A stretch of 64,000 nt of DNA from the NCBI RefSeq assembly GCF_000817775.3, contig NZ_JTHE03000091.1, positions 62,001 through 126,000 of the forward strand, given 5' to 3'. Position 1 is the first letter of the stretch; the number at the start of each line of letters is the position of its first letter. Shown here piece after piece: positions 49,302 through 51,667 of this stretch. Position numbers and translations under genes: made by a program. The notes beneath the pieces are model-generated. The model saw only the letters and a program-made list of their open reading frames with translations. It made no database searches and was not told the origin of the DNA. The DNA is from Lyngbya confervoides BDU141951. GTDB lineage: Bacteria > Cyanobacteriota > Cyanobacteriia > Thermosynechococcales > Thermosynechococcaceae.

Positions 49302-49436
49302 GGTTGATTCCCTGACTGACCTCCCCCCCATTATCGGGCCAACTGGACCCAGCTTCAGACAATGTCAGGGGGAATTGTGTCATTAATGTAAAGTTTTGGT
49401 TACAATAGTTAATATTACTTTATCAACAGAGCAGCC

Positions 49437-49934
49437 ATGTATTCTTCATCCACCTTCAATCTCTCCTTGGACTCCAGCGTTCAAACCCCGGTCGAGGCTG
49501 CCCTGAGTGCCTTTCAAGCCCTCTCAACCAACGGAAAGCTGGGACTGTTGTGGGATCTGTACTGCAATTTAGGGGGGGCCATCACCCCGGCGGCCACTGG
49601 AGCTGCGCGAGTACAGTTTATCCAGGGGCTGTTGGATCAAGTTAAGCGCTTGAGTTTTGAAGATCAGCTCCGGTTTATGCGAGATTTGGCAGATCGCGCC
49701 AATACGCCCCTCACCCGCGCCTATGGCGTTTTTACTAACAACAACAAGCTAGCGTTTTGGTATCAGCTAGCTGAGCTGATGGAGGCCGGGGAAGTCATTC
49801 CTGTTCCCGAGAGCTATCGTCTCAGTCGCGATGCCAGCATTGTATTTAGCCAAATTTCTGCCCTGGACTTTAATCAGCAAATTACCGTGCTGCGCCAGGC
49901 TGTGGTTCAGATGGGATATGACCCCTTTGCCTAG
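49437..49934 (+). CDS. Helical carotenoid protein (OCP N-terminal domain homologue)
   Basis: 165 residues, all of them the all-helical carotenoid-binding domain of OCP: LSTNGKLGLLWDLYCNLGGAITPAATGAARVQF, VKRLSFEDQLRFMRDLADRANTPLTRAYGVFTNNNKLAFWYQLAELME. Residues equivalent to OCP Tyr44 (LYCN) and Trp110 (FWYQ) are kept. HCPs bind echinenone-like ketocarotenoids and quench singlet oxygen or, for some clades, phycobilisome excitation. The next gene encodes the matching C-terminal domain; the HCP4 clade is the one usually found in that arrangement, so HCP4 is the likely class. A TACAAT -10-like box lies at 49401. Confidence 0.9.
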   Translation: MYSSSTFNLSLDSSVQTPVEAALSAFQALSTNGKLGLLWDLYCNLGGAITPAATGAARVQFIQGLLDQVKRLSFEDQLRFMRDLADRANTPLTRAYGVFTNNNKLAFWYQLAELMEAGEVIPVPESYRLSRDASIVFSQISALDFNQQITVLRQAVVQMGYDPFA

Positions 49935-49971
49935 GGCCGCAGTTTTTCTGTTTCTCTGATCTTGATCTAGC

Positions 49972-50009
49972 ACAGGAGAAGCGGGGATTAACCTCGCTTT
50001 TCCTGTTTT
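49972..50009 (+). terminator. Hairpin between the HCP and CTDH genes
   Basis: ACAGGAGAAGCG (49972-49983) pairs with CGCTTTTCCTGT (49995-50006), twelve pairs with one G-U, followed by TTT. It is a rho-independent-like stop placed 38 bp after the first gene and 40 bp before the second, and probably lowers CTDH expression relative to HCP. Confidence 0.7.
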
Positions 50010-50049
50010 GACCCTGACTCTGACCCCAGCACAAGGAGCGTGACTTGTG

Positions 50050-50436
50050 ATGACGACAGCCGCCATCCATCCAGATCTAGCCATCGCAACGGTCCACCAG
50101 TATTTTTCCACCCTCAACCAGGGGGCGTTTGCCCAAACGGCTGCGCTTTTTGCCCAGGATGGGGTGCTCTATCCTCCCTTTGAAGAAGGCGTGCAAGGCC
50201 CTGAGGCGATCGCGGCCTATTTATCCCAGGAAGCCCAGGGAATTCAAATTGAACCGCTGGAGATTGACCCGATCCCTGACTGTCCCTACGCGTTTCAGGT
50301 GAAGGGCCGCGTTAAGCTGTCCTGGTGTCAGGTGAAAGCTGCTTGGAAATTTGTACTCAGCCCCGACTCAGCCATTGCTTCGGTGCAAATCAAACTCTTG
50401 GCGTCCCTGCAGGATCTGCTGCAATTCAGGCAATAG
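50050..50436 (+). CDS. CTDH, OCP C-terminal domain homologue (NTF2-like carotenoid carrier)
   Basis: 128 residues from ATG 50050 (GTG 50047 also possible). It has the NTF2-like fold of the OCP regulatory domain: VHQYFSTLNQGAFAQTAALFAQDGVLYPPFEEG, then KGRVKLSWCQVKAAWKFVLSPDSAIASVQIKLLASLQDLLQF. The two Trp aligned with the carotenoid-contacting tryptophans of OCP CTD (SWCQ and AAWKF) are kept. Known CTDHs take carotenoid from membranes and hand it to HCPs. Next to the HCP gene this makes a two-piece OCP. It ends 17 bp before rnpB. Confidence 0.9.
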   Translation: MTTAAIHPDLAIATVHQYFSTLNQGAFAQTAALFAQDGVLYPPFEEGVQGPEAIAAYLSQEAQGIQIEPLEIDPIPDCPYAFQVKGRVKLSWCQVKAAWKFVLSPDSAIASVQIKLLASLQDLLQFRQ

Positions 50437-50453: not shown

Positions 50454-50920
50454 TGGAAAGAGCAGGTGTAGGTGGTTGCAGGCTTGCCCCGCTGCAGGCT
50501 TGAGGAAAGTCCGGGCTCCCTAAAGACCAGGCTTGCTGGGTAACGCCCAGTGCGGGTGACCGTGAGGAGAGTGCCACAGAAACATACCGCCAACGGAAAG
50601 GCTGCGCCATGAAGGTGAGGGACGAAGTCCGCTTCGAAGCCCCCGCACGTTCAGCGCTGGACCTTTTACGGGTAAGGGTGCAAGGGTGCGGTAAGAGCGC
50701 ACCAGCAATGTCGAGAGGCATTGGCTCGGTAAACCCCGGCCAGGAGCAAGGCAGAGGAAGCAATGGTTGGTCTTTTCCCTGCTTCCAGAGTTGAGGCCGC
50801 AGGAGGTGTCTGGTAACAGACATCCTAGATAGATAACCGCCCTTCAGGGCTCTGGCTCAAAGCGATTTTGAGGCCCAAAGTGCTGAAGAACAGAACCCGG
50901 CTTATGTCCTGCTCTTTCCA
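50454..50920 (+). ncRNA. rnpB: RNase P RNA
   Basis: The conserved core GAGGAAAGTCCGGGCTCC lies at 50502-50519, and other RNase P landmarks follow: GCCACAGAAACATACCGCC, GGTAAACCCCGGC, CAAGGCAGAGGAAGCAATGG, AGATAGATAACCGCC and CAGAACCCGGCTTAT. The ends are set by helix P1: TGGAAAGAGCAGG (50454-50466) pairs perfectly with CCTGCTCTTTCCA (50908-50920), 13 bp. The length of 467 nt is on the large side, so extra helices or short repeats may be inserted. A TACACT box at 50442-50447, spanning the end of the CTDH gene and the short gap, sits at -10 distance. This is the catalytic RNA that matures tRNA 5' ends. Confidence 0.97.
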
Positions 50921-50938
50921 CTGTTTATTTTGAATGTC

Positions 50939-51667
50939 ATGGCAGATGTCTTTCCGCCCCGTACGAGTCAGTTGCAACGGTTGGTTGCTCGCCTGGGGAT
51001 TTCCGAGCAGGGGCCGGTGCGCTGGGATCTCCTGGATCTGGCCTTGACCCATCCCTCCGCCCATCCCACGGATAACTATGAACAGCTGGAGTTTATCGGG
51101 GATGCGGTGGTTCGGCTGGTGGCGTCCCGACTACTCTGGGCAGAAAATCACCAGGGTCAGGTGGGGGAATGGTCGGCCATTCGTGCCGTGCTGGTGAGTG
51201 ATCGCACCCTAGCTGAACTGGCCCAGTCCATTGGCCTGGAGAAATTTCTGCGGGTGGGATCTAGTGCAGTGGGCGATCGCAAGGGAGAAACCTCTCGTCT
51301 AGCCGATGCCTTTGAGGCAGTTTTGGCCGCGCTGTTTTTGAGCAGTCAAACCCTGGAGTTGATTTTGCCCTGGCTGGAGCCCCTCTTTGTGCGATCGATT
51401 GCCAAGATTCGATCAGATCCTGCCTACCAAAACTATAAAGCGGCCCTTCAGCAATGGACTCAGCTTCACTATCAGCAGCTTCCTGAATATCGGGTACAGT
51501 CGCTCTCCAGCCCCGGCCAATCCTCTGCAGATCTCACGTTTCAAGCAGAGGTCTGGTTTCAAGATCGCTGTTTGGGGCAGGGACAGGGACACTCTCGCAA
51601 GGCGGCGGAGAAAGCGGCGGCCAAGGTGGCCTATGAAGCGATTCTGCATGAACAGTCAGAAAGGTAG
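50939..51667 (+). CDS. rnc: Ribonuclease III
   Basis: 242 residues from ATG 50939 (TTG 50930 is also in frame). The signature [19 protein letters not shown] contains the catalytic Glu/Asp, and [17 protein letters not shown] the second metal site. A double-stranded RNA-binding domain fills about 160-240 ([41 protein letters not shown]). It cuts double-stranded RNA, including rRNA precursors. The start lies only 18 nt beyond the last base of rnpB, so it is probably read from the rnpB promoter or one inside that gene. Confidence 0.95.

Follow-up and report, generated by a model that had tools for sequence, protein, structure and literature searches.

An adjacent HCP and CTDH gene pair with an intergenic hairpin in a Lyngbya confervoides genome that also encodes OCP and FRP

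Overview

The DNA analysed here, a stretch of 64,000 nucleotides from Lyngbya confervoides BDU141951 (the window), encodes a helical carotenoid protein (HCP) immediately followed by a homolog of the C-terminal domain of the orange carotenoid protein (CTDH). The locus is very probably an hcp-ctdh pair of a known kind, present beside a normal OCP and FRP, in which the CTDH loads an HCP quencher with carotenoid, a cysteine possibly acts as a lock on the CTDH, and a hairpin between the genes may lower ctdh expression. The gene pair is ordinary and already described, with one modest oddity, this being the CTDH cysteine. The features concerned are as follows:

49377-49406, + strand: weak match to a sigma-70-like promoter ahead of hcp (GTGTCA-18-TACAAT); by chance alone, roughly one site of this kind would be expected in the region
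49437-49934, + strand: hcp, helical carotenoid protein, 165 aa, with Carot_N as its entire domain content
49972-50006, + strand: intercistronic hairpin with a 15-bp stem and a 5-nt loop, ACAGGAGAAGCGGGG-ATTAA-CCTCGCTTTTCCTGT, then TTTG
50047-50436, + strand: ctdh, OCP C-terminal-domain homolog of the NTF2 fold, 129 aa

Identity of the two genes

The two genes share a strand and are separated by a gap of 112 nt (49935-50046). The start codon of ctdh is GTG and the next codon is ATG, giving a possible alternative start at 50050. When the proteins were compared with Pfam, the HCP matched Carot_N (PF09150) across residues 15-162 of 165 (5e-57), with no C-terminal OCP domain, and the CTDH matched NTF2 (1e-8); the corresponding search of NCBIfam returned no model for either protein. 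Among solved structures, the HCP was closest to 8qx5 (4.8e-50), while the top relatives of the CTDH were all Anabaena CTDH All4940 (best 1.5e-34). The former structure is apparently Anabaena HCP4, since its R and F sit one residue before R65 and F152 of that protein (PMC12059629). These sequence matches to solved relatives are enough to fix the fold of each protein. The open reading frames, domain matches and structural matches agreed with an earlier note on this DNA, which had proposed separate HCP and CTDH genes lying side by side.

For residue mapping, both proteins were aligned with the OCP encoded in this genome, numbered as in Synechocystis. OCP residues W41, Y44, N104, W110, Y111 and R155 corresponded to W39, Y42, N102, W108, Y109 and R153 of the HCP, which also retains OCP L37 and T152, while Y201, E244 and W288 corresponded to Y19, E62 and W100 of the CTDH; thus, the carotenoid-contact residues are indeed retained in both proteins, as had been claimed. 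The HCP further matches the HCP4/HCP5 signature, with R58 at OCP position 60 and F145 at position 147. Both substitutions, R60 and F147, have been reported for HCP4 and HCP5, the HCPs that quench phycobilisomes (PMC12059629), and Arg at position 60 is absent from the other two HCPs of this genome. The CTDH contains W93-C94, in which C94 aligns with Anabaena C103, the Cys that marks clade-2 (redox-type) CTDHs. Directly behind it, four residues are missing, as is typical of CTDHs; this deletion is important for carotenoid uptake (PMC6123778).

OCP, FRP and ketolase in the genome

A search of the genome (4.85 Mb, 122 contigs) identified four Carot_N proteins: a full-length OCP of 319 aa, the window HCP and two further HCPs. 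The OCP is encoded on contig C121, where it is adjoined by FRP. There was only one stand-alone CTDH, the other CTDH-like match being the C-terminal domain of the OCP itself. Neither OCP nor FRP occurs within the 64-kb window, as the earlier note had stated; both are encoded on another contig. Given an intact OCP with FRP elsewhere, and two HCPs besides, the label 'split OCP' that the note had given to the pair is misleading, and a split OCP as substitute for OCP was ruled out. The pair is therefore an addition to OCP, not a replacement for it.

The genome was also checked for a ketolase, and a CrtW-like candidate was found (CrtW family, 1.6e-62); its score of 212 bits is below the NCBIfam curated cut-off of 350. 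CrtR, zeta-carotene desaturase, carotenoid isomerase and CrtD are encoded as well, and nothing above cut-off was found for CrtO in the genome. The two further HCPs are located at 1489-2010 of locus L003 and 1420-1908 of locus L004; the latter matched 8qx5 and the RCP-labelled 5fcx about equally, had a very long branch and has a transposase-like gene nearby.

Distribution of the gene pair

The arrangement recurs widely. Among 18 HCP relatives from named genomes, ctdh was immediately downstream of hcp and on the same strand in 14, and the four without an adjacent ctdh were Crocosphaera MAGs. Within the same GTDB order, for which 29 genomes were searched, 13 genomes besides this one have a stand-alone CTDH, and hcp stood directly before it in 12 of them. 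The exception was L026, a genome from the same family, where no HCP gene was found near the CTDH within the fetched flank; the CTDH of this genome has Val-Val at the Trp-Cys site. Seven genomes of one genus in the family (g2, G001-G007) produced neither a Carot_N protein nor a CTDH match. The pairing is not novel, having been published for other cyanobacteria: HCP4 and CTDH are adjacent in Anabaena and have been proposed as OCP progenitors (PMC6123778), an HCP5-clade hcp adjoins the CTDH1 gene in Euhalothece (PMC6971039), and the pair in Thermosynechococcus vulcanus was targeted together in one knockout construct (PMC9090330).

Downstream of the pair, the RNase P RNA gene (rnpB; Rfam RF00010, 249 bits) occupies 50459-50919 on the + strand, starting 22 nt past the ctdh stop codon, and is followed at 50930-51667 by an RNase III-like gene that was named from sequence only. 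As a conserved downstream context, rnpB was ruled out: a check of 18 related loci found none in the vicinity of the pair.

Phylogenetic position and the CTDH cysteine

Phylogenetic analysis placed the window HCP among HCPs from Leptolyngbya, Nodosilinea and Xenococcus (27 rows, 99/96), nested in a larger group (44 rows, 91/90) to which Thermosynechococcus also belongs. When the protein was forced into the Nostocales HCP4 clade, the topology was rejected (p-AU = 0.0004); a simple HCP4 assignment was thereby excluded by tree and AU test, though the closest solved HCP appears to be Anabaena HCP4. 'HCP5-like' would seem the better label, because the HCP of T. elongatus has been called closest to HCP5 (PMC12059629); the label comes through the grouping with Thermosynechococcus and not through a named HCP5 reference.

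The residue at the C94 site was related to HCP type. All 38 sampled pairs with an HCP from the larger group had Phe there, while Cys was present in each of the 13 pairs, that of Anabaena among them, from the Nostocales-type HCP4 clade; for some genomes, 'Nostocales' denotes their grouping with Anabaena in the tree. The window pair was the sole exception among the sampled pairs. In the CTDH tree, the window CTDH joined the Cys group (95/88), which at first favoured a swap of partners. After removal of the Trp-Cys columns (93-94), it moved to the Phe-type partners with weak support (64/70), and AU tests did not reject placement with the Phe-type groups. With the grouping lost in this way and the AU tests not decisive, Trp-Cys may have arrived either through partner exchange or through convergent gain. 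The presence of a redox-type, Trp-Cys CTDH beside an HCP5-like HCP is a mildly new point. A fuller reading can be offered only tentatively, being on balance unlikely to hold in all its parts: an HCP5-like quencher would have come to be paired, by exchange or convergence, with a Cys-bearing and redox-lockable CTDH in a lineage otherwise of the Phe type, with a recurrent hairpin attenuator setting the ratio of donor to acceptor.

The intergenic hairpin

The hairpin begins 37 nt past the hcp stop codon and has a folding energy of -24.6 kcal/mol. The window contains no longer perfect stem (loop 3-8), and when the hcp-ctdh gap was subjected to 5000 dinucleotide shuffles, a stem of 15 bp arose in only 2, so that the terminator-like hairpin recorded between the genes by the earlier note was confirmed. 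The T tract behind it is short (four T, in GTTTTG); judged by sequence, the hairpin would therefore make a weak intrinsic terminator, and a simple terminator scan called none here. The structure is probably a partial terminator, an attenuator or a stabiliser and protector of the hcp 3' end.

Comparable structures were frequent at the same junction. Gaps measuring 40 nt or more (window plus relatives; 49 distinct sequences) were each scored against their own shuffles, and 34 had a hairpin at p ≤ 0.05, these gaps not being independent given the shared ancestry of lineages. In the Thermosynechococcus group, the stem led into a run of T, or had one behind it, in 12 of 12 pairs, and several Nostocales-type pairs had stems of 12-14 bp with T-rich tails. 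This recurrence makes unequal dosage, with less ctdh than hcp mRNA, a plausible consequence. In seven relatives the gap was 4-33 nt, and several of these (e.g., L012, L018, L104, L112, L131) had no hairpin, which suggests plain co-transcription of hcp and ctdh there; attenuation is therefore not required for the pair.

Two other interpretations of the hairpin were considered. It could be a full terminator, with ctdh using its own promoter and the two genes being regulated separately. The strength of the stem is in keeping with this, as is the presence, between hcp and ctdh, of a stem plus T-run terminator in each of the 12 Thermosynechococcus-group genomes; however, a promoter scan found no promoter-like site inside the gap, the T tract in the window is short and the tight gaps of several relatives favour co-transcription in those cases, and full termination is somewhat doubtful. 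Bacterial 3' ends are often protected by such stems, and the hairpin could also be no more than a stabiliser or processing site of the hcp 3' end that leaves ctdh levels unaffected. The weak T tract fits such a role, but the repeated occurrence of T-tailed stems between these genes in other lineages suggests termination, and the interpretation is accordingly considered unlikely.

Proposed function

Under the preferred reading, a known kind of pair supplementing OCP, a CTDH homodimer would take ketocarotenoid out of membranes and pass it on to apo-HCP, which, once loaded, would act as a constitutive, rather than light-switched, quencher of phycobilisomes and/or singlet oxygen. In an oxidised cell, C94 may lock the CTDH dimer through a disulfide, as C103 does in Anabaena CTDH, and the hairpin after hcp would end or protect most transcripts at that point, so that ctdh mRNA would be scarcer than hcp mRNA. 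The transfer step, the quenching and the disulfide lock are predictions drawn from relatives, whose published behaviour makes a route from membrane to CTDH dimer to HCP likely (PMC6123778, PMC12059629); carotenoid transfer itself has been published for Anabaena HCP4 and CTDH (PMC6123778). A two-piece system of carotenoid delivery, as the earlier note had envisaged apart from its 'split OCP' wording, is well supported by homology and by the published Anabaena and Thermosynechococcus relatives (PMC6123778). Quenching in the cell by the window HCP is not assured, because T. elongatus, whose HCP is HCP5-like, lacks blue-light NPQ in vivo (PMC12059629).

A true split OCP, in which HCP and CTDH would form a light-opened heterodimer sharing one carotenoid and acting as a light-switched quencher, is very improbable. 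In its favour, the genes for the two halves are adjacent, neither residue of the salt bridge, R155 (R153) or E244 (E62), has been lost, and synthetically separated OCP domains gave OCP-like heterodimers (Lechno-Yossef et al. 2017, as cited in PMC12059629), but the genome already encodes a complete OCP together with FRP, natural CTDHs homodimerise and donate carotenoid (PMC6123778), HCP and CTDH of Euhalothece are unresponsive to light (PMC6971039), and R153 and E62 are kept family-wide and so are not diagnostic.

As a carotenoid-delivery pair supplementing OCP, the locus adds a member to a known class. If the cysteine was gained independently, the locus would offer a natural setting in which to study the evolution of redox control over carotenoid transfer, and the recurrent intergenic hairpins suggest a possible way of setting the ratio of carotenoid donor to acceptor.

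Comparison with known systems

The pair resembles HCP4 (All4941) and CTDH (All4940) of Anabaena sp. PCC 7120 in having adjacent genes, in the Trp-Cys (C103) and four-residue deletion of the CTDH and in R60 and F147 of the HCP; in both organisms the pair co-exists with OCP (OCP1 in Anabaena) and other HCPs. Unlike the Anabaena protein, the window HCP, which is 50% identical to HCP4, falls outside the Nostocales HCP4 clade; identity between the CTDHs is 56%. The window HCP is nearer to those of the Thermosynechococcus and Euhalothece pairs, which consist of an HCP5-like protein and a clade-1, Phe-type CTDH, also from adjacent genes; HCP identity is approximately 60-62% to most proteins of the Thermosynechococcus group, and that group, too, has a hairpin between the genes. 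In contrast, the CTDH there has Phe where the window has Cys, and T. elongatus is without OCP (PMC12059629) whereas this genome has both OCP and FRP. Relative to OCP1, each protein is homologous to one domain and retains its carotenoid contacts, but they are two separate proteins with no linker, and the genome's intact OCP is encoded elsewhere.
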